Positions 727 to 13,754 of a DNA stretch of 13,754 nt are shown piece by piece. Both the position numbers and the translations under genes were made by a program. The notes under the pieces were generated by a model that was given only the letters and a program-made list of their open reading frames with translations, was not told where the DNA came from and searched no databases. Location of the stretch: assembly GCA_003852805.1 (NCBI GenBank), contig RDDY01000036.1, positions 1 through 13,754 of the forward strand, given 5' to 3'. This stretch comes from Chryseobacterium sp. Its GTDB lineage: Bacteria; Bacteroidota; Bacteroidia; Flavobacteriales; Weeksellaceae. Position 1 is the stretch's first letter. Each line of letters starts with the position of its first letter.

Positions 727-1962
727 ATGAAGTACGATGTAATCATCATAGGAGCGGGCTTGGTAGGATTGGCCACCGCCGTGCGGTTGCAACAGCTGCA
801 ACCGTCTTCCCGCATATTGATTCTGGAAAAAGAATCTCGCGTGGCCGCCCATCAATCGGGGCACAACAGTGGAGTCATCCACAGCGGAATCTATTACAAA
901 CCCGGAAGCCTGAAAGCCAAAAACTGTCTGGCGGGTTATCGGTCCATCATCCGTTTCGCCGAAGAGTACGGCATAGATTACGATTTGTGCGGAAAGATTA
1001 TCGTGGCCACCAATGAGGCCGAACTTCCGCTCTTGGAAAATATTTACCGCCGCGGCTTGCAAAACGGATTGTCGGGGCTGGAAAAACTCGCGCGCGAGGA
1101 ATTCCGCGAATGGGAGCCGCACTGCGAAGGCTTGGCTGCCGTCAGGGTTCCGCAGACGGGCATCATCGATTTTCCCGCGCTTGCCCGAAAACTGGCAGAG
1201 TTGTTCCAAGCAGCGGGGGGCAGATTGGAGTTCGGCCAAGAGGTGATGGGCATCAGCGAAAACATCGACGGTGTTTTTGTGCAGACGCGCAGCGACGAAT
1301 GGACAGGCGAACAACTAATAAGTTGCGGTGGCTTGTACAGCGATGCACTGACCTCGATGACAAGCGACAAGAACGATCTGATGATTATTCCGTTCCGTGG
1401 CGAATACTACAAGCTGCGCGACGAGAAAAAACACCTCGTGAAGAATTTGATTTATCCCGTGCCGAGTCCGGATTTCCCGTTTCTCGGCGTACATTTCACC
1501 CGAATGATCGGCGGTGAAATAGAAGCGGGACCAAATGCTGTTTTAGCACTGAGGAAAGAGGGATACGACTTTTTTGATATAGACCGAAAAGAATTGCTGC
1601 AAACAATCGCTTGGCCGGGTTTCCGCAAAATTGTTCGCAAATACGGCCGTACGGGCCTCGGGGAGATACACCGGTCGTTGTCCAAGAAGGCGTTTACCAA
1701 AGCGCTGCGCAGATTGGTGCCCGAACTTACGGAGGAAGACTTGATACGCGGCGGTGCAGGGGTGCGCGCGCAGGCCTGCGACCGCCAAGGCAAACTGCTG
1801 GACGATTTTGATATCCTGAGACAAGGCAGACTGATCCATGTAAGAAACGCACCGTCTCCGGCAGCAACTTCCTGCTTGGCGATAGGCGAGTACATCAGCC
1901 GACTGGCGCTGCCAACCCCTTCGGTAAGAGCACAGGTGCCCGCCTTGGCGCCGGCAGAGTGA
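727..1962 (+). CDS. lhgO: L-2-hydroxyglutarate oxidase (FAD-dependent, DAO family)
   Basis: This 411-residue flavoprotein has the usual LhgO/YgaF length. It oxidises L-2-hydroxyglutarate to 2-oxoglutarate, passing electrons through FAD to the membrane quinone pool. The FAD-binding GAGLVG motif is at residues 9-14, with the ribose-binding acidic residue at the end of strand 2 (E34). The family signature HNSGVIHSGIYYKPGSLK spans residues 46-63, and the C-terminal GVRAQACDRQGKLLDDF and HVRNAPSPAATS motifs are typical of LhgO. The ATG lies 2 nt after the upstream stop. Such an enzyme normally serves central metabolism, so its place in a polysaccharide operon is telling: WbpB-type dehydrogenases use 2-oxoglutarate as oxidant and release 2-hydroxyglutarate, which this enzyme could recycle. 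That link is inferred from context. Another 2-hydroxy acid cannot be excluded as substrate. Confidence 0.9.
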   Translation: MKYDVIIIGAGLVGLATAVRLQQLQPSSRILILEKESRVAAHQSGHNSGVIHSGIYYKPGSLKAKNCLAGYRSIIRFAEEYGIDYDLCGKIIVATNEAELPLLENIYRRGLQNGLSGLEKLAREEFREWEPHCEGLAAVRVPQTGIIDFPALARKLAELFQAAGGRLEFGQEVMGISENIDGVFVQTRSDEWTGEQLISCGGLYSDALTSMTSDKNDLMIIPFRGEYYKLRDEKKHLVKNLIYPVPSPDFPFLGVHFTRMIGGEIEAGPNAVLALRKEGYDFFDIDRKELLQTIAWPGFRKIVRKYGRTGLGEIHRSLSKKAFTKALRRLVPELTEEDLIRGGAGVRAQACDRQGKLLDDFDILRQGRLIHVRNAPSPAATSCLAIGEYISRLALPTPSVRAQVPALAPAE

Positions 1963-2035
1963 CAGCAATTTCCCGATTGAAAAACAGATTATTGTAAATT
2001 GACACCAACTTCCAACCCATAAAACGCTTAGCCGT

Positions 2036-2608
2036 ATGTCAGATTATTTTGCACACGAAACCGCCGTTATAGACCAGGGTGCTACCATAGGAGAAGGCAC
2101 CAAAATATGGCACTTCTCACACATCATGCCCAACTGTATCCTCGGTGAAAAATGCAACATCGGGCAGAATGTGGTGGTGTCGCCGGGCGTTGTGCTCGGA
2201 AAGAATGTGAAGGTGCAAAACAACGTGTCGATCTACGAAGGCGTTACCTGCGATGACGATGTTTTTCTGGGTCCGTCGATGGTGTTCACCAACGTCATCA
2301 ATCCGCGCAGCGCCGTCAACCGCCGCGGAGAATATCTGAAAACCCATGTGGGCAAAGGGGCTTCCATCGGCGCCAACGCCACCATTGTTTGCGGCCACAA
2401 TATCGGGGCGTTTGCCTTCATCGGTGCCGGCGCGGTGGTAACCAAGGAAGTGCCTCCGTATGCTTTGGTCGTGGGAAACCCCGCAAGACAAATGGGCTGG
2501 ATGAGCGAATACGGCCATCGGTTGGAGTTTGATGACGAAGGGCTGGCAAGCTGCGCGGAAAGCGGCGACCGATACCGTTTGGAAAACAACCGTGTAACGA
2601 AACTGTAG
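2036..2608 (+). CDS. wbpD: UDP-2-acetamido-3-amino-hexuronate N-acetyltransferase (WbpD/WlbB type)
   Basis: A 190-residue left-handed beta-helix acyltransferase. Hexapeptide repeats ([LIV]-G-x4) run from about residue 8 to 147. The conserved stretches NVINPRSAVNR (residues 86-96), KGASIGANATIVCGHNIG (about 107-124) and PPYALVVGNPAR (about 140-151) match WbpD/WlbB. These enzymes transfer acetyl from acetyl-CoA to the 3-amino group of UDP-GlcNAc3NA, giving UDP-GlcNAc(3NAc)A. The ATG follows an A-rich stretch without a Shine-Dalgarno sequence. The 73-nt gap after lhgO holds no gene. Immediate linkage to a WbpB-type dehydrogenase supports the assignment over a generic sugar O-acetyltransferase. 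The aminotransferase that would supply its substrate is not in the window. Confidence 0.88.
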   Translation: MSDYFAHETAVIDQGATIGEGTKIWHFSHIMPNCILGEKCNIGQNVVVSPGVVLGKNVKVQNNVSIYEGVTCDDDVFLGPSMVFTNVINPRSAVNRRGEYLKTHVGKGASIGANATIVCGHNIGAFAFIGAGAVVTKEVPPYALVVGNPARQMGWMSEYGHRLEFDDEGLASCAESGDRYRLENNRVTKL

Positions 2609-2614
2609 GAAGTG

Positions 2615-3631
2615 ATGAACGATAAGATAAAATTCGCCGTGGTGGGCTGCGGCCACATCGGAAAACGGCACGCTGAGATGATCAGCCGCAATCCGGAGTG
2701 CGAATTGGTGGCCTTGGTCGATGTGAAGAACAAACAGAAACTCGGCATCGACGGTTACGACGTTCCGTTTTATACCTCTCTGGAAAATCTGTTGGCGTCC
2801 GATTTGGAAATCGACGTAATCAACATCGCCACGCCCAACGGTTTCCATGCAGCGCAAGGATTACAGGTGTTGGAGTCGGGCCGTCATTTGGTCATAGAAA
2901 AACCCATGGCCCTCAGTCGTTGCGATGCCGAAGCGTTGATCTTCAAAGGTCTGCAACGCCACAAGCAAGTGTTCTGTGTGATGCAGAACCGCTACTCGCC
3001 GCCATCCGCATGGTTGAAAGAACTTTTGCTTTCGGGCAAACTGGGCGAAATCTACATGGTGCAGATCAATTGTTTTTGGAACCGCGATGACCGTTACTAT
3101 AAACCTGATAACTGGCACGGTGACAGGGATTTGGACGGCGGAACGCTGTTCACTCAGTTTTCGCATTTCATAGATTTGATGTATTGGTACTTCGGCGACA
3201 TCACCAACATCAGTGCGCGCTTTGCCGATTTTAACCACAAAGACTTAACCGATTTCGAAGATACGGGCATCGTCAATTTCGAATTCATCAACGGCGGCAT
3301 CGGTACGCTGAATTATTCTACCTCTGTGTGGAACAAGAATTTGGAGAGCAGCATTACCGTCATTGCGGAAAATGGCTCGCTGAAGGTGGCCGGTCAGTAC
3401 ATGAACGAGGTGGAATACTGCCACATAAAAGAGTATGAAATGCCCGAACTGGCACCCACCAATCCGGGCAACGATTACGGCGCCTACATGGGTTCTGCAG
3501 CCAACCATCATTTCATCATAGAAAATGTGGTGGATGTGCTCAAGGGGAGAAGTGTTATCACCACCAACGCCCTTGAAGGCCTGAAAGTGGTGGACATAAT
3601 AGAGAGGATATATAATTTGAAGCCGCGCTGA
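2615..3631 (+). CDS. wbpB: UDP-N-acetyl-glucosaminuronate 3-dehydrogenase (WbpB/WlbA type, Gfo/Idh/MocA family)
   Basis: From the ATG at 2615 the protein has 338 residues; a GTG at 2612 would add one residue and is less likely. It starts 6 nt after the wbpD stop. The N-terminal Rossmann fold shows GCGHIG (residues 11-16), and the family EKP motif, whose lysine lies in the active site, is at 95-97. The C-terminal sheet domain carries NRDDRYY (156-162), WHGDRDLDGG (167-176) and QFSHFIDL (181-188), typical of WbpB/WlbA. The enzyme oxidises C3 of UDP-GlcNAcA to the 3-keto sugar for transamination by a WbpE-type enzyme. WbpB-type enzymes are known to regenerate tightly bound NAD+ by reducing 2-oxoglutarate, which makes the nearby lhgO meaningful. 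The assignment rests on motifs plus the wbpD neighbour. Confidence 0.88.
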   Translation: MNDKIKFAVVGCGHIGKRHAEMISRNPECELVALVDVKNKQKLGIDGYDVPFYTSLENLLASDLEIDVINIATPNGFHAAQGLQVLESGRHLVIEKPMALSRCDAEALIFKGLQRHKQVFCVMQNRYSPPSAWLKELLLSGKLGEIYMVQINCFWNRDDRYYKPDNWHGDRDLDGGTLFTQFSHFIDLMYWYFGDITNISARFADFNHKDLTDFEDTGIVNFEFINGGIGTLNYSTSVWNKNLESSITVIAENGSLKVAGQYMNEVEYCHIKEYEMPELAPTNPGNDYGAYMGSAANHHFIIENVVDVLKGRSVITTNALEGLKVVDIIERIYNLKPR

Positions 3632-4089
3632 TCTCTACAATGTTGTTTTGGACATTCTGATCAGCTGATTATAGAAATCGCGTACTTGGCAACCGCGGTC
3701 GACTGTAATCTTTAGAACGCAGGAAATCTGCGACGGCGTGTAGTCTTGCTGTTTTGCGAAGACTGAATGATTAATGACGCTAACCGGTCGACAAAGAATA
3801 TCTAAAAAAACTATATTTGCGAGTTGAAAATATAATAACATCGCGCTTGGCAATCTAAAAGTAAAGAACTGGTGTCACAGAGAGCCGAGCAGGACTTTCT
3901 ACAATTTGACAGGCCTTAAACAATGCCGCGGTCTGGCTGTGCACCGGTTTGAACCTCGCCCGCTAGGAATCCAAGCTTCCTTTATAAATGCTCAATCGTA
4001 TACGTCAGGAAAGAATATATGCCGCTGTTATCACTTTCATCTCGTAAAATCTACTTTATAAAAACCAGGCTCGGAATCCAGGTTGGCAT
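3632..4089 (+). other. 458-nt noncoding gap upstream of wzx
   Basis: No convincing gene is seen on either strand. The stretch marks the change from the GC-richer wbpB side to the AT-richer wzx-wzy segment. It contains a 10-bp perfect palindrome ATCAGCTGAT (3660-3669), a small CGCAG/CTGCG inverted repeat (3718-3732) without a T-run, and a candidate promoter box at 3812-3819. The length suits a regulatory leader or a recombination scar; the sequence does not decide between them. Confidence 0.5.
3812..3819 (+). promoter_or_regulatory. Candidate Bacteroidota -7 promoter box (TATATTTG)
   Basis: The octamer TATATTTG fits the TAnnTTTG consensus used by the Bacteroidota primary sigma factor and lies in an A/T-rich stretch of the long gap before wzx. 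I see no clear TTG-type -33 box at the expected spacing, so the support is one element only. If used, transcription would start near 3826 and give a leader of about 260 nt before wzx. Confidence 0.3.
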
Positions 4090-8618: not shown

Positions 8619-9599
8619 ATGCTTATTTATAATTACAAAACCGTCCTTTTTCTGATATTCGCTCTCTTCCTGCAAAGTGCTTGTAGTGGTACCGGCTCAC
8701 AAAGTTTCGTTTCCGGCACTGCACCGATGCCCGCATCATCTGCAAGCCGCATAAATAAGCAATTGAATCATTTGGAAATCTTGCTTCTAACAGATGCGGA
8801 AAGTGAGAACATCAGGCGCTTTACACAGGATAATTCCGTTCAGTTGATTGGCTTCGTCAACGATGCTCAGTTCATGCGGCAGGACCGATTATTTTCCATC
8901 GACCGGGCCGGGCTGGACGCCGAACTGCAAAGAGCTTATCCGGACAAAAACGCAGTCGGCACAGCCTACATAGACTTGGAGGCTCCCTACTTGGATTGGC
9001 TCATGCATGCCGATGTCAACTCGGCAGAATTCAAAAAAAGCAAGCAACTCTTCCTCGATGTTCTTTCTTACGTTAAGCGGGAGCGCCCCAACGTAAAGTG
9101 GGGCTATTACGCAATCCCGTTCACTGACTATTGGAACAGAAAGCCGAGCTTCTACGCCGGCAATAACCGCATAGCGGAAATTATTCGTGCAAGCGACGTG
9201 CTGTTCCCGTCCATTTATATATTCTACAATTATCTGAGTTTCAAGAGGGAAAATGAGAGTTACATCCGCGACAATACACGCGAATCCATAAAAACAGCCC
9301 TGAAGTACGGTAAACCTGTCTACCCGATGGTCATGACGCGTTATCATCCGTCCAATGCAAAGGTGGGCGATAAATCCATCGCCTTTGATGATTTTGATTT
9401 TTATGTGAAAACCATTGCCGCGGAAACCGTGGCAGGCAAAAGGGTGGACGGAATTGCTTTATGGAACGCCGACGGCTATTTTTACACAACTAAACTGGAG
9501 GCCGTACGGTCCGATGTAGAAAGATCGGGTCTTCCTTTTCAAAGGTTCTATGATGCTTACTTGGAGACGTATCTGAAAATTCTTTTGAAATATAAATAG
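8619..9599 (+). CDS. Predicted lipoprotein with hyaluronidase (GH56)-like domain
   Basis: 326 residues. The N-terminus is a hydrophobic signal (residues 8-18) ending in LQSAC, so lipidation at C22 is likely, although Gln at -3 is not ideal. The residues after C22 (SGTGSQ) lack the acidic surface-export signal of Bacteroidota lipoproteins, which favours the periplasm. The rest resembles GH56 hyaluronidases: IDLE (118-121) matches the catalytic D-x-E (D119, E121), WGYY (161-164), LFPSIYI (195-201) and GIALW (278-282) fall in the family order. C22 is the only cysteine, so the disulphides of animal enzymes are absent. GH56 enzymes cleave next to HexNAc in HexNAc-uronate polymers. A role in trimming or turnover of the cluster's polymer is an inference. 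The call rests on remembered motif order; another TIM-barrel hydrolase family remains possible. GC content is near that of the flanks, unlike the preceding genes. Confidence 0.62.
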   Translation: MLIYNYKTVLFLIFALFLQSACSGTGSQSFVSGTAPMPASSASRINKQLNHLEILLLTDAESENIRRFTQDNSVQLIGFVNDAQFMRQDRLFSIDRAGLDAELQRAYPDKNAVGTAYIDLEAPYLDWLMHADVNSAEFKKSKQLFLDVLSYVKRERPNVKWGYYAIPFTDYWNRKPSFYAGNNRIAEIIRASDVLFPSIYIFYNYLSFKRENESYIRDNTRESIKTALKYGKPVYPMVMTRYHPSNAKVGDKSIAFDDFDFYVKTIAAETVAGKRVDGIALWNADGYFYTTKLEAVRSDVERSGLPFQRFYDAYLETYLKILLKYK

Positions 9600-9659: not shown

Positions 9660-10799
9660 ATGAACGGAACAACACGTACCATCTGCACCAATTGTGTCAT
9701 GGACACCACAGACCCCAACATCAAGTTCGACGAAAACGGCGTCTGCGAAAGGTGCAACCAATACTACACAGACATCCTGCCGATGTGGAACAAAGGCTTG
9801 GGCCATGAGCAAGAACTGCGAACAACGGTAGAGAAAATAAAAGCCGCGGGAAAAGGCAAGCCTTACGATTGTCTGCTGGGTTTCAGCGGTGGCTTTGACA
9901 GTTCCTATATGCTGCACTTTGCGGTAAAAGAGCTGGGCCTGCGGCCGCTGGTTTTCCACGTAGATGCCGGTTGGAATACGAAACTGGCAAGCGAGAACAT
10001 CCGTAAAATGGTGGATAAGTTGGGCGTTGAACTTCGCATAGAGACCATCTCTTGGGAGGAGGTGCGCGACATGCAACTGGCGTTTTTCAAATCCGGAGTG
10101 CCTCACTTGGATATTCCCCAAGACCACGCTTTCGTAGCCGTTTTGGATAATTTCGCAAGGAAATACGGAATCAAATACATCTTGAACGGGGGGAACATCT
10201 CTACCGAAGTAATCGTAAACCCGAACTCCTGGTCGTATTGGGGCACCGACTTGAAGCATATCAAGGATGTACTGCGGCGTTTCGGTACGGTGGAATACAA
10301 AACCTATCCGTTTACCAACATCCTGCGCCGCAAGATCTATATGCCCTACGTGAAAGGCGTCAAAATAGTCAAATTGCTCAACCTGATTCCGTACGTAAAG
10401 AAAGAGGCAGAGCAGCTGTTGAAAGACGAATACGGCTGGACTTCCTACCCGCAAAAACATTTTGAATCCATCGCCACCAAGTTTATCGAGGGCTACTGGC
10501 TGCCCGAAAGATTTGGCTACGATGTGCGCAAACCCCAGTTCTCCAGCTTGATCCTTACCGAACAGATGACAAGGGAAGAAGCTTTGGAACGGCTTGAACA
10601 AAAACCTTTGACCGACGAAGAGGCCCGTGAGCTTTTCAGCTTGGTGGCAGAGAAACTTAGCATCTCGGAAGAGGAACTACACTCGTACCTGATGATGCCC
10701 ATGAAGAGATATACGGATTACAAGAACCGCGAATATATGTACGATCTGGGCGCCAAGGCAATGTATCGATTGAAGTTGGACAAACTGATTAGAAAGTAA
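9660..10799 (+). CDS. wbpG: N-acetyl sugar amidotransferase (WbpG/PseA type)
   Basis: A 379-residue ATP-pyrophosphatase (PP-loop) enzyme. Two CxxC pairs (C9/C12 and C29/C32) form a likely zinc site, and the PP-loop SGGFDSS is at residues 76-82. NGGNISTEVIVNP and the WGTDLKHIKD stretch further along are typical of the N-acetyl sugar amidotransferase family. In Pseudomonas aeruginosa, WbpG with HisH2/HisF2 converts a 3-acetamido group of a diacetamido-mannuronic acid into 3-acetamidino. The WbpB/WbpD genes upstream would supply such a 3-N-acetyl sugar. The ammonia-supplying HisH/HisF homologues are not in the window. A PseA/LegG-like role on a nonulosonic acid is less likely because no such genes are nearby. 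The stop is followed after 3 nt by the fnlA start. Confidence 0.88.
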   Translation: MNGTTRTICTNCVMDTTDPNIKFDENGVCERCNQYYTDILPMWNKGLGHEQELRTTVEKIKAAGKGKPYDCLLGFSGGFDSSYMLHFAVKELGLRPLVFHVDAGWNTKLASENIRKMVDKLGVELRIETISWEEVRDMQLAFFKSGVPHLDIPQDHAFVAVLDNFARKYGIKYILNGGNISTEVIVNPNSWSYWGTDLKHIKDVLRRFGTVEYKTYPFTNILRRKIYMPYVKGVKIVKLLNLIPYVKKEAEQLLKDEYGWTSYPQKHFESIATKFIEGYWLPERFGYDVRKPQFSSLILTEQMTREEALERLEQKPLTDEEARELFSLVAEKLSISEEELHSYLMMPMKRYTDYKNREYMYDLGAKAMYRLKLDKLIRK

Positions 10800-10802
10800 A
10801 CA

Positions 10803-11840
10803 ATGCCTTCGATAAAAAATAAAACCCTTTTGATCACCGGCGGTACGGGATCTTTCGGAACCGCCGTGCTCAACCGTTTTCTGCATACAGACCATTTTTC
10901 GGAAATCCGCATCTTTTCACGAGACGAAAAGAAGCAGGACGACATGCGGAACCGGTACAAAAACGATAAGATAAAATACTACATCGGCGACGTGCGCGAT
11001 TACAGCAGCGTAGAACCGGCCACCCGCGGTGTAGATTACATTTTCCACGCCGCTGCGCTGAAACAGGTGCCGTCTTGCGAGTTTTTCCCGATGCAGGCGG
11101 TGAAAACCAACGTGGAAGGCACTCAGAACGTTATCCGAGCGGCTTCATCAAACAAGGTGCGGAAAGTGATCTGTCTTTCGACCGACAAAGCAGCCTATCC
11201 CATCAACGCCATGGGGATCTCCAAGGCCATGATGGAAAAGGTAGCCGTGGCCGAGGCGCGCAATCAGACCGAAACCGTGGTGTGCCTGACGCGCTACGGC
11301 AATGTAATGGCTTCTCGCGGTTCGGTGATCCCGTTGTTTCTGAGCCAAATCCAAAAAGGCGAGGCGATCACGGTGACCGACCCCAAGATGTCGCGCTTCT
11401 TCATGTCGCTGGAAGACGCTGTCGATTTGGTGCTCTTCGCTTTTGAAAACGCCAATCCCGGCGACCTGTTCGTGAACAAAGCGCCTGCGGGCAGCATCGG
11501 CGATCTGGCACAAGCACTGATCGAGCTGACAGGAAAAGAGGTGCCGATCAAAATCATAGGCACGCGCCACGGAGAAAAACTCTACGAAACCCTGTGTACG
11601 CGCGAGGAAATGCTGAAAGCGGAAGACATGGGGGATTTCTACCGCATCCCCGCAGACAACCGTGACCTGAATTACGCCAAGTATTTTTCCGAAGGCGATC
11701 GGGACATCTCAAAGGTGCAGGATTACCATTCGCACAACGCTCACCAAGAAGACGTCAACGGCTTGAAGAAACTGATCTCGGGTCTGCCATTGATCCGCCG
11801 AGAAATTTTTGGAGAGCAAATAGACTACTGCGCAGAATAA
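10803..11840 (+). CDS. fnlA: UDP-N-acetylglucosamine 4,6-dehydratase/5-epimerase (FnlA/CapE)
   Basis: 345 residues, the normal length for the extended-SDR FnlA/CapE/WbjB enzymes. The NAD(P)-binding GGTGSFG is at 13-19, and HAAALKQVPSCE (82-93) is conserved in the family. The usual YxxxK is replaced by MGISK (M137 to K141), as known for inverting dehydratases of this group. RYGNVMASRGSVIP follows, and the C-terminal GEKLYETL is typical. It converts UDP-GlcNAc to the UDP-2-acetamido-2,6-dideoxy-L-arabino-4-hexulose intermediate, the first step to UDP-L-FucNAc. PseB/FlaA1 is the alternative, but the later CapF homologue settles the pathway. It lies 3 nt after wbpG, so it is cotranscribed with it, and a repeat-rich gap follows. 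Confidence 0.93.
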   Translation: MPSIKNKTLLITGGTGSFGTAVLNRFLHTDHFSEIRIFSRDEKKQDDMRNRYKNDKIKYYIGDVRDYSSVEPATRGVDYIFHAAALKQVPSCEFFPMQAVKTNVEGTQNVIRAASSNKVRKVICLSTDKAAYPINAMGISKAMMEKVAVAEARNQTETVVCLTRYGNVMASRGSVIPLFLSQIQKGEAITVTDPKMSRFFMSLEDAVDLVLFAFENANPGDLFVNKAPAGSIGDLAQALIELTGKEVPIKIIGTRHGEKLYETLCTREEMLKAEDMGDFYRIPADNRDLNYAKYFSEGDRDISKVQDYHSHNAHQEDVNGLKKLISGLPLIRREIFGEQIDYCAE

Positions 11841-11862
11841 AACATCCTTTCTCAAAACAACC

Positions 11863-12247
11863 CCTTCTCTCTTGGAGAGGGCAGGGGTAAGGACAATAAA
11901 ACAACCGCATAATTAAGCAACAAGATCCTTTATCATTTATAGTTTATCGTCCCTCACCGTTCACACTTCCACAAACAGCTCCCTCTCCTTTGGAGAGGAT
12001 CTGGGTAAGGATATAAAAACAGCCCATTGTTAAGCAAACAAAATCCTTTGTCATTTATAGTTTATCGTCCCTCACCGTTCACACTTCCACAAACAGCTCC
12101 CTCTCCTTTGGAGAGGATCTGGGTAAGGATATAAAAACAGCCCATTGTTAAGCAAACAAAATCCTTTGTCATTTATAGTTTATCGTCCCTCACCGTTCAC
12201 ACTTCCACAAACAGCTCCCTCTCCTTTGGAGAGGGCAGGGGTGAGGA
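11863..12247. repeat. 118-bp tandem repeat array (3.3 copies)
   Basis: Units start at 11863, 11981, 12099 and 12217, exactly 118 bp apart. The units at 11981 and 12099 are identical as read. The first differs in its first half but matches through the second half (TTTATAGTTTATCGTCCCTC onward), and the last copy stops after about 31 bp. Each unit opens with a CCTCTCC/GGAGAGG hairpin. The first and last copies continue GAGAGGGCAGGGGT while the middle two read GAGAGGATCTGGGT. The unit is not a multiple of three and contains no long ORF. The array fills most of the 483-nt gap between fnlA and the cupin gene; bases 12248-12323 beyond it hold no gene, only a TGTTTAAACA palindrome at 12291-12300. Confidence 0.95.
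12217..12235. repeat. Perfect CCCTCTCC-TTT-GGAGAGGG hairpin ending the array
   Basis: Arms 12217-12224 and 12228-12235 are perfect 8-bp complements around TTT. The two internal copies (11981 and 12099) form a 7-bp version. There is no downstream T-run on either strand, so this is not a standard intrinsic terminator. I regard it as a dispersed REP-like intergenic hairpin of the type found in Bacteroidota genomes. Confidence 0.7.
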
Positions 12248-12323
12248 AAATCACAGTTCCGTGGCCTCTGCGCCGTTCTCCGTTTCGCTGTGTTTAAACA
12301 GAAAATAATTTATCTGCACAAAA

Positions 12324-12761
12324 ATGACCGAAAAAGCTCAGCTGATCTCCGGCAACCGTCATTCCGATGGGCGAGGCAATATCCTGTTCAACAATGATTT
12401 CGACGCCACGGCTATCAAACGCGTTTACACCATTGAAAATGCCGAAGTCGGTACGCCGCGCGGATGGCAGGGTCACAAAATCGAACAGCGCTGGTTCGCA
12501 GCCGTATCCGGCAGCTTTAATATCGAAATCATCGAAATTGACGATTTCGATAAACCCGCAATCGACCTCCCGCGGCAGCTTTACGAGTTGAGCGGCAGTG
12601 CACTGGATATTCTGCATGTGCCCGGGGGTCACATAACCCTGATTACGGCCTTGGAAGAAAACAGTAAATTGCTGGTCATGGCGGATTATGCCGTCGGTGA
12701 AATTGCTGATGAATATCGGTTTCCGGTGGATTACTTTGTGCGAAGAGTAGCAATCCGTTAG
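12324..12761 (+). CDS. WxcM-like cupin (sugar epimerase/ketoisomerase family)
   Basis: A 145-residue single-domain cupin, the length of FdtA/QdtA-type 3,4-ketoisomerases and WxcM-like domains. The RmlC-like opening HSDGRGNILFNNDF lies at residues 13-26. The diagnostic segment is RGWQGHKIEQRWF (46-58), followed by AVSGSFNIEI, and HVPGGH is at 98-103. FdtA-type enzymes carry RGxHxH with two active-site histidines; here the first position is Gln49 and only His51 is kept, so the usual isomerase chemistry may be changed or lost. Position between fnlA and fnlB suggests a role linked to UDP-L-FucNAc synthesis or its intermediates. The substrate is unknown. The ATG follows CACAAAA, with no Shine-Dalgarno sequence. 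Confidence 0.8.
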   Translation: MTEKAQLISGNRHSDGRGNILFNNDFDATAIKRVYTIENAEVGTPRGWQGHKIEQRWFAAVSGSFNIEIIEIDDFDKPAIDLPRQLYELSGSALDILHVPGGHITLITALEENSKLLVMADYAVGEIADEYRFPVDYFVRRVAIR

Positions 12762-12913
12762 CAGTAATTATTATTGTGTAACTGCTTTACAACGAGTGAT
12801 TCTCACGGTATTGCACAACAGATTGAAACAACAGGAAAACTACTGAGTGGACTCATCCGATACCTAAAACAAAAAACCTAAAACTTCCCCTCTCCGATCA
12901 CCGATTCACGAGT

Positions 12914-12950
12914 CACCAACCACCATACACCAACCACCAACCACCATGCA
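12914..12950 (+). repeat. Direct repeat CACCAACCACCAT(A/G)CA over the fnlB start
   Basis: The 16-mers at 12914-12929 and 12935-12950 differ at one base and are offset by 21 nt. The second copy contains the fnlB ATG. Just upstream, CCCTCTCC at 12888-12895 and TCACCGATTCACG at 12898-12910 recall pieces of the 118-bp array (CCCTCTCC and TCACCGTTCAC), so this 184-nt gap seems to hold degenerate relatives of the same intergenic sequence. Confidence 0.7.
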
Positions 12951-13754
12951 AAAAATAGGAATCACCGGCCAAGACGGTTTCGTAGGTAAACACCTTTATA
13001 ATACTTTGGGGCTTTTTCCCGAAGAATTCGAGCGAATTGAATTTAAGCGAGAGTACTTCGATAATGACGAGCAGCTCGATGATTTTGTAAATCGCTGCGA
13101 CGCCATCGTACATCTGGCCGCCATGAACCGACACGAGTCTGAGGAGGTCATCTATAAAACCAACGTGATGTTGGCGCAGAAGCTGGCCGATTCGCTCAGC
13201 CGCACGGGGTCCAAAGTCCACGTATTGTTTTCGTCGTCGTCCCAAGAAGAGCGCGACAACCTGTACGGCCGTTCAAAGAAAGAAGGCCGCGAAATCTTGG
13301 CAGCGCAGACCCTCCGGAACGGCGGCAATTTTACGGGCCTGATCATCCCCAATGTATTCGGGCCTTTCGGACGACCGAACTACAATTCGTTCATCGCAAC
13401 TTTCTGCTACAAGCTGACCCACGGCGAACAGCCTGAAATCCAAACCGACGGCGAAGTGAAGTTGATCTACGTGGGAGAACTGGTGGAAGAAATCATCGGC
13501 CGCATACGCCGTAATGTCACCGAGAAAGAGTTTCGTGTAGCGCACACTTCCGTTCACAAAGTCGCCGAAGTATTCGCAAAGCTCAACCGTTTCAGAGAAG
13601 AGTATTTTGAGAAAGGCGAAATCCCCGCATTGCAGACGGTGTTCGATCGGCAGTTGTTCAACACTTTCCGTTCGTACATAGACCACGCCTCACATTTCCC
13701 GGTGAAGCTTACCAAGCATACCGATCCGCGCGGTGCCTTTGTGGAGGTGATCCG
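12946..13754 (+). CDS. fnlB: UDP-2-acetamido-2,6-dideoxy-hexulose reductase/epimerase FnlB/CapF (truncated by window)
   Basis: 269 codons are visible of a protein that is normally about 370 residues; the gene runs off the right edge. The N-terminal SDR domain has the nucleotide-binding GQDGFVG (8-14), HLAAMNRH (56-63) and the catalytic YGRSK (Y107, K111). PNVFGPFGRPNYNSF follows, and at the very end KHTDPRG marks the start of the C-terminal cupin domain. In CapF the cupin domain epimerises C3 and the SDR domain reduces the 4-keto group, giving UDP-6-deoxy-L-TalNAc, which a CapG/FnlC 2-epimerase turns into UDP-L-FucNAc. That third enzyme is expected just beyond the window. The start codon lies inside a short direct repeat with no Shine-Dalgarno sequence. 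Confidence 0.93.
   Translation, partial: MQKIGITGQDGFVGKHLYNTLGLFPEEFERIEFKREYFDNDEQLDDFVNRCDAIVHLAAMNRHESEEVIYKTNVMLAQKLADSLSRTGSKVHVLFSSSSQEERDNLYGRSKKEGREILAAQTLRNGGNFTGLIIPNVFGPFGRPNYNSFIATFCYKLTHGEQPEIQTDGEVKLIYVGELVEEIIGRIRRNVTEKEFRVAHTSVHKVAEVFAKLNRFREEYFEKGEIPALQTVFDRQLFNTFRSYIDHASHFPVKLTKHTDPRGAFVEVI

Follow-up and report, generated by a model that had tools for sequence, protein, structure and literature searches.

In a stretch of 13,754 nucleotides from Chryseobacterium sp. (NCBI GenBank assembly GCA_003852805.1, contig RDDY01000036.1; the whole stretch is referred to here as the window), a gene of the L-2-hydroxyglutarate:quinone oxidoreductase family (LhgO) stands among predicted genes for a UDP-diaminouronate sugar, and the occurrence of LhgO beside diaminouronate-sugar enzymes in separately assembled clusters suggests an unrecognised redox by-product loop, the chemistry of which is predicted from gene content. 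The model proposes that a cassette of UDP-sugar 6-dehydrogenase (UGDH), WlbA-type dehydrogenase, DegT aminotransferase and acyltransferase would make UDP-2,3-diacetamido-2,3-dideoxyuronic acid for surface polysaccharide, possibly with WlbA unloading the hydride of C3 oxidation onto 2-oxoglutarate, which would be the simplest source of L-2-hydroxyglutarate (L-2-HG; 2-HG where the enantiomer is left open). The aminotransferase would also supply 2-oxoglutarate from glutamate. LhgO would then convert L-2-HG back to 2-oxoglutarate and pass the electrons into the quinone pool, a step that may pull C3 oxidation forward and keep 2-HG low. That a dedicated LhgO removes in this way the L-2-HG released by C3 oxidation or amination is the favoured reading, at somewhat less than an even chance. 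A stronger version, in which the WlbA-type 3-dehydrogenases of this phylum release L-2-HG as an obligatory co-product and LhgO has joined their operons several times independently, as a respiration-driven mirror of the WbpB/D2HGDH loop of Pseudomonas aeruginosa, is put forward more tentatively. What was observed are gene identities called by profile, an LhgO whose active-site residues are all in place, linkage that recurs in separate cases, and no CsiD over cut-off; the production of L-2-HG, the enzyme that makes it, the sugar formed and the way the flux runs are inferred.

The LhgO motifs and tight gene order that the original prediction had read from the letters of the window are both borne out, as the protein passes the curated equivalog NF008726 (533.4 bits, cut-off 299), retains five active-site residues and is encoded on one strand with its neighbors in the order UGDH, 2 nt, LhgO, 73 nt, hexapeptide acyltransferase, 3 nt, WlbA. 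This leaves 649 nt, with the acyltransferase in between, from LhgO to the WlbA-type dehydrogenase. The best solved relative is the Drosophila L-2-HG dehydrogenase (L2HGDH; 8w75, 346.7 bits), in which mutation of S88, H92, Y289, H302 or R393 reduced or abolished activity (PMC10726252). Their counterparts, matched through shared motifs in the alignment, are S48, H52, Y243, H256 and R347 of the window protein. The same set is kept in 58/58 rows of a first alignment, made after nine of 67 distinct search matches were excluded for scoring below 165 bits, and in 70/70 rows of a second, from which L177 (170 bits) was also excluded. It is conceivable, though improbable, that the operon LhgO now acts on something else, for instance a different 2-hydroxy acid or one of the sugar acids of the pathway, and the recurrence of LhgO-family genes in several unlike polysaccharide clusters is what might be expected of recruited oxidoreductases. 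However, this residue conservation argues otherwise, as does a comparison of the 16 LhgOs of the window's family with 23 others (a comparison that excludes 19 rows belonging to polysaccharide clusters or to a deeper branch), in which just four otherwise fixed columns differ (I/L, T/S, L/I-V and C/A), mostly conservatively. In E. coli, LhgO is bound to the membrane and works as an L-2-HG:quinone oxidoreductase (PMC6265302), so that the transfer of electrons to quinone assumed in the original prediction is published for that enzyme, and kinship with it suggests quinone coupling for the window LhgO. A collection-wide scan for relatives returned 53 loci, five of them close over the whole protein (53-58% identical); four of these records are labelled Bacteroidetes, Chitinophaga or Chitinophagales, and one Ignavibacteriae.

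Within the window's family, of which 148 genomes were drawn, LhgO follows one kind of WlbA. LhgO is over cut-off in 16 genomes, and G031 (56% complete) adds a fragment of 127.7 bits where a contig ends. WlbA is found at E<=1e-60 in 68 genomes, 17 of them with no less than 73% identity and 51 with 36-69%; the 17 are the same genomes that carry LhgO (G031 as the fragment), and none of the 51 has LhgO over cut-off. The two genes lie 649-4233 nt apart in 15 of the 17; in G031 LhgO is just downstream of WlbA, which brings the genomes with the pair within 4.3 kb to 16, and in G030 the two are on different contigs. The order UGDH-LhgO-aminotransferase-acyltransferase-WlbA recurs in twelve loci, with intergenic gaps in the cassettes of -4 to 35 nt in most. 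All four enzyme types for UDP-GlcNAc3NAcA (WbpA-WbpB-WbpE-WbpD) thus stand together in 12 family loci, the window being without the aminotransferase. In G102, UGDH is followed directly by a WlbA of 69% identity, LhgO, aminotransferase and acyltransferase being missing between them, and the genome has no LhgO over cut-off. A general housekeeping role for LhgO in the family was considered and rejected, as no more than 16 of the 148 genomes have it over cut-off and each of these has the close WlbA. The family LhgOs form one clade (support 100/100), which points to common descent, or to a single cassette having been exchanged, and not to 17 independent events. This non-independence is also what would be seen if LhgO merely travelled with mobile polysaccharide islands and had no link to WlbA, in which case the family result would go back to one ancestral cassette. 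Such hitch-hiking is judged unlikely, given the open frames, the short gaps and the fact that none of these genomes of the family has two LhgO copies over cut-off, and given the separate LhgO lineages and gene orders found beside WlbA outside the family.

Those lineages emerge from the survey of lhgO-wbpB/wlbA linkage that the original prediction had proposed, which proved positive in several lineages of the window's own phylum, the range for which linkage is shown here. Among 395 genomes drawn from the order (LhgO at E<=1e-80, WlbA at E<=1e-90), 133 have LhgO, 86 have WlbA and 76 have both, for a raw two-by-two odds ratio of 34 that is confounded by kinship, because whole families tend to carry both genes. 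Eighteen of the 76 belong to the window's family, with the genes at most 4.3 kb apart in 18/18; nine of these are also in the family draw, and G000 and at least eight others are common to the draws. Among the 58 both-gene genomes outside the family, five (G548, G649, G733, G486 and G682) have the pair within 10 kb against 0.69 expected (Poisson P 7.5e-4) and three within 2 kb against 0.19 expected (P 0.001), under a chance model of uniform placement with rounded genome sizes that ignores gene hot spots, among them surface-polysaccharide islands, a point in favor of hitch-hiking. A draw of 345 genomes from the phylum (WlbA at E<=1e-60) gave 46 with WlbA, of which 35 have LhgO over cut-off, one below cut-off and 10 no match; in six genomes the two genes are at most 10 kb apart, five of these being members of the family and the sixth G172, and in G184 and G245 the distance is 20-22 kb. 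The arrangements outside the family are diverse: LhgO-acyltransferase-WlbA with no close aminotransferase adjoining (L232), LhgO convergent with acyltransferase-WlbA (L233), WlbA-acyltransferase-aminotransferase-LhgO (L234), the same with a glycosyltransferase before LhgO (L164), LhgO beside UGDH with WlbA 5.8 kb away (L235), and LhgO and WlbA 5.7 kb apart (L236). On a 70-row LhgO tree, the rows near WlbA, a label that includes G030 (L010; genes on different contigs) placed inside the family clade, fall into seven separate groups requiring 7 changes, at least 5 of them forced by well-supported branches; the long branches of L236 and L164 make the exact number uncertain.

The aminotransferase is less constant than LhgO, as the close WlbA is accompanied by LhgO in 17/17 genomes and by the cassette aminotransferase in 15/17. 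The WbpE-type partner supposed by the original prediction is absent from the window, where the gene is cleanly missing from 1963-2035 with no remnant seen by eye; the nearest in the genome, 57% identical, is on another contig (C358) beside an epimerase/dehydratase gene. Aminotransferases of this kind are general in the family (144/148 genomes at E<=1e-100), and among the matches listed, once the 15 of the cassette are set aside, identity is 55-60%. The cassette form (at least 66% identity) is found in 15/148 genomes, all within the 17 with LhgO and close WlbA, the two without it being the window's genome and G030. This distribution bears on the main rival to L-2-HG made by WlbA, namely side-reaction sources: the aminotransferase and the NADH from UGDH and WlbA may raise local 2-oxoglutarate and NADH, whereupon side activity of other dehydrogenases would make L-2-HG that LhgO clears as metabolite repair. 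The aminotransferase directly follows LhgO in 14 family loci and adjoins it in L234, and LhgO-like genes head NeuB or DegT operons without an adjoining WlbA (L165, L167 and L169), as repair would allow. However, LhgO is kept without a cassette aminotransferase in the window and in G030, and in L232 without a close adjoining one, and LhgO is not over cut-off in any of the 51 genomes of the family whose WlbA is of the more distant kind, so that metabolite repair is considered unlikely, if somewhat less so than a change of substrate or hitch-hiking. The acyltransferase, probably a 3-N-acetyltransferase judging by its position and kinship, has counterparts beside WlbA in family loci that are 76-86% identical to it. 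Two loci of the family differ at this slot, which is taken by two other genes (L090, 11743-14821; L094, 11387-14465): in L090 a 643-amino-acid E1-dehydrogenase/transketolase-like protein and a 384-amino-acid hexapeptide protein, and in L094 open reading frames (ORFs) of equal lengths. The replacement suggests an unusual N-acyl group, the families being taken from L090 only.

The dehydrogenase of the window is probably a UDP-N-acetylglucosaminuronic acid (UDP-GlcNAcA) 3-dehydrogenase, but not of the WbpB type named in the original prediction. By phmmer against solved chains, the nearest are 3q2i (186 bits) and 3q2k (174 bits), and the chains named WbpB are far (3o9z, 38 bits; 3oa2, 36 bits); on these scores a reading as P. 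aeruginosa-type WbpB was rejected. We take 3q2i and 3q2k to be the WlbAs of Chromobacterium violaceum and Bordetella pertussis, respectively, the names returned by the search being only dehydrogenase and oxidoreductase; we know of no LhgO link for either enzyme, a point for which no search was made. In PMC10622841, the B. pertussis and C. violaceum enzymes are described as having sequential mechanisms and the P. aeruginosa enzyme as ping-pong with α-ketoglutarate. As the window WlbA is 31% identical to each of the two chains, neither mechanism is assignable to it. Co-adapted active-site changes in the WlbAs of LhgO-bearing genomes were looked for by column comparison and none were seen. On the WlbA tree the WlbAs of these genomes do not form one clade (3 changes), and that of G102 nests among them.

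The clear source of L-2-HG known to us in bacteria is CsiD, which hydroxylates glutarate (PMC6265302). Profile searches found CsiD (PF08943) over cut-off in 0/17 and 0/6 genomes with both LhgO and WlbA, some of them incomplete, the nearest approach being a sub-threshold match in G030 (24.6 bits, cut-off 27); the CsiD/glutarate route was rejected on this count of 0/23. Another source of L-2-HG is thus needed, and since the operon contains one plausible L-2-HG maker, the 3-dehydrogenase, a distant relative of which reduces 2-oxoglutarate, a mirror-image loop is favored. The csiD-lhgO-gabDTP operon of E. coli (PMC6265302) shares the LhgO family, from which quinone coupling is taken by kinship, but serves lysine and glutarate catabolism, whereas the operon here is one for polysaccharide. 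A 2-HG loop is itself already published, for the D enantiomer and another recycling enzyme: in P. aeruginosa, WbpB converts 2-oxoglutarate to D-2-HG, which is recycled by D2HGDH; D-2-HG no longer accumulates when wbpB is removed from a strain already without D2HGDH and SerA, and O-antigen falls when D2HGDH is lost (PMC8651671). That loop and the one proposed here have in common the UDP-GlcNAcA 3-dehydrogenase step, 2-oxoglutarate as oxidant and an FAD enzyme restoring it. They differ in that P. aeruginosa uses the D enantiomer and an unrelated D2HGDH (PA0317), whereas here the candidate is of the L-specific LhgO family, lies in the same operon and accompanies a dehydrogenase of another sequence class. 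The WbpB and LhgO families are each known to handle 2-HG, yet a loop exactly as that of WbpB, or a glutarate route of the E. coli type, is largely refuted and very improbable, as WbpB makes the D form, the window dehydrogenase is of the other class and CsiD is lacking. Of the redox loop originally predicted, the coupling of LhgO to a 3-dehydrogenase module is supported by linkage, and the WbpB premise is not; D-2-HG, the product of the P. aeruginosa enzyme, is the outcome that the prediction itself had named as speaking against it. No account of LhgO in polysaccharide operons was found in the open-licence literature, where matches were mostly not examined in full text, and the terms hydroxyglutarate, lhgO, Gfo and wbp do not appear in the main text of a paper on the capsule of Riemerella.

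Several observations weigh against L-2-HG production by WlbA and its removal by LhgO. The related P. aeruginosa WbpB is known to yield 2-HG of the D form, a compound that the Drosophila L2HGDH does not turn over (PMC10726252), and the nearest solved chains presumably belong to the enzymes described as sequential. No telling fixed difference (4 scattered columns) sets the WlbAs of genomes with LhgO apart from those of genomes lacking it. Outside the family, 6 of the 58 pairs share a contig at a distance of more than 25 kb and 47 are split between contigs, many of these assemblies being drafts. WlbA occurs without LhgO in 10/46 genomes of the phylum draw and 10/86 of the order draw, and acyltransferase-WlbA or aminotransferase-WlbA pairs without an LhgO match at 1e-60 were found in G163, G433, G271 and G218, so that LhgO is not obligatory. 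Further, LhgO-family genes occur in polysaccharide clusters with no adjoining WlbA (L165, L167, L169 and L170-172), and the aminotransferase is missing from the window itself. If WlbA nevertheless makes L-2-HG, surface-sugar synthesis would be a real physiological source of this compound in bacteria, the surface-polysaccharide pathway would join 2-oxoglutarate and glutamate metabolism to respiration, and the class of dehydrogenase would set the stereochemistry of 2-HG, with the matching recycling enzyme, D2HGDH or LhgO, following from it.

The genes concerned are collected in Table 1. The assembly that holds the window comprises 2.16 Mb in 388 contigs and is 93% complete with 4.4% contamination. 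The UGDH has lost its 5' end to the contig end, and its top-scoring model, NF011729 (TviB), gives 293 bits, below the cut-off of 592 for this partial protein.

Table 1. Coordinates of the LhgO cassette in the window
Feature	Position	Strand	Profile or structural match
UDP-sugar 6-dehydrogenase (WbpA/TviB type), C-terminal 240 aa	2..724	+	TIGR03026, 211 bits (cut-off 190); PF00984/PF03720
LhgO, L-2-hydroxyglutarate:quinone oxidoreductase family, 411 aa	727..1962	+	NF008726
73-nt gap, slot of a DegT/DnrJ aminotransferase gene (~375 aa) in relatives	1963..2035	+	
Hexapeptide acyltransferase, WbpD/WlbB-like	2036..2608	+	PF00132
WlbA-type Gfo/Idh/MocA dehydrogenase	2612..3631	+	PF01408/PF22725/PF02894; phmmer to 3q2i/3q2k

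The window is a surface-polysaccharide locus, as downstream of WlbA it carries wzx-like, polymerase-like, acyltransferase, glycosyltransferase, WbuX and FnlA genes, the polymerase-like gene having no family match in profile scans. Between wlbA and wzx lie 458 bp (3632-4089) with no ORF of 80 amino acids or more. The protein encoded at 8619-9599, inside the polysaccharide locus, has a weak match to GH56 hyaluronidase (37.6 bits, cut-off 23.2) and no NCBIfam match at 1e-30. Positions 9660-13752 hold a WbuX amidotransferase, an epimerase-family gene and FnlA (538 bits, below its cut-off of 730), which would suggest that an amidated uronate and L-FucNAc occur together in one polymer.

LhgO-like genes were also seen in polysaccharide clusters of other kinds. 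Those of L165 (3502-4746), L167 (3456-4700) and L169 (9475-10674) are 37-39% identical to the window's and belong to another family, that of L165 scoring 403 bits to NF008726. In L165 and L169 they head operons with an epimerase, a UDP-GlcNAc 2-epimerase and DegT, joined by NeuB in L165, a legionaminate-like content. The gene of L167 also heads an operon, presumably of similar content. In L170, L171, L172 and L177, an LhgO-like gene lies beside combinations of NTP_transferase, RmlC-like (PF00908), epimerase and DRL oxidoreductase (PF21135) genes.

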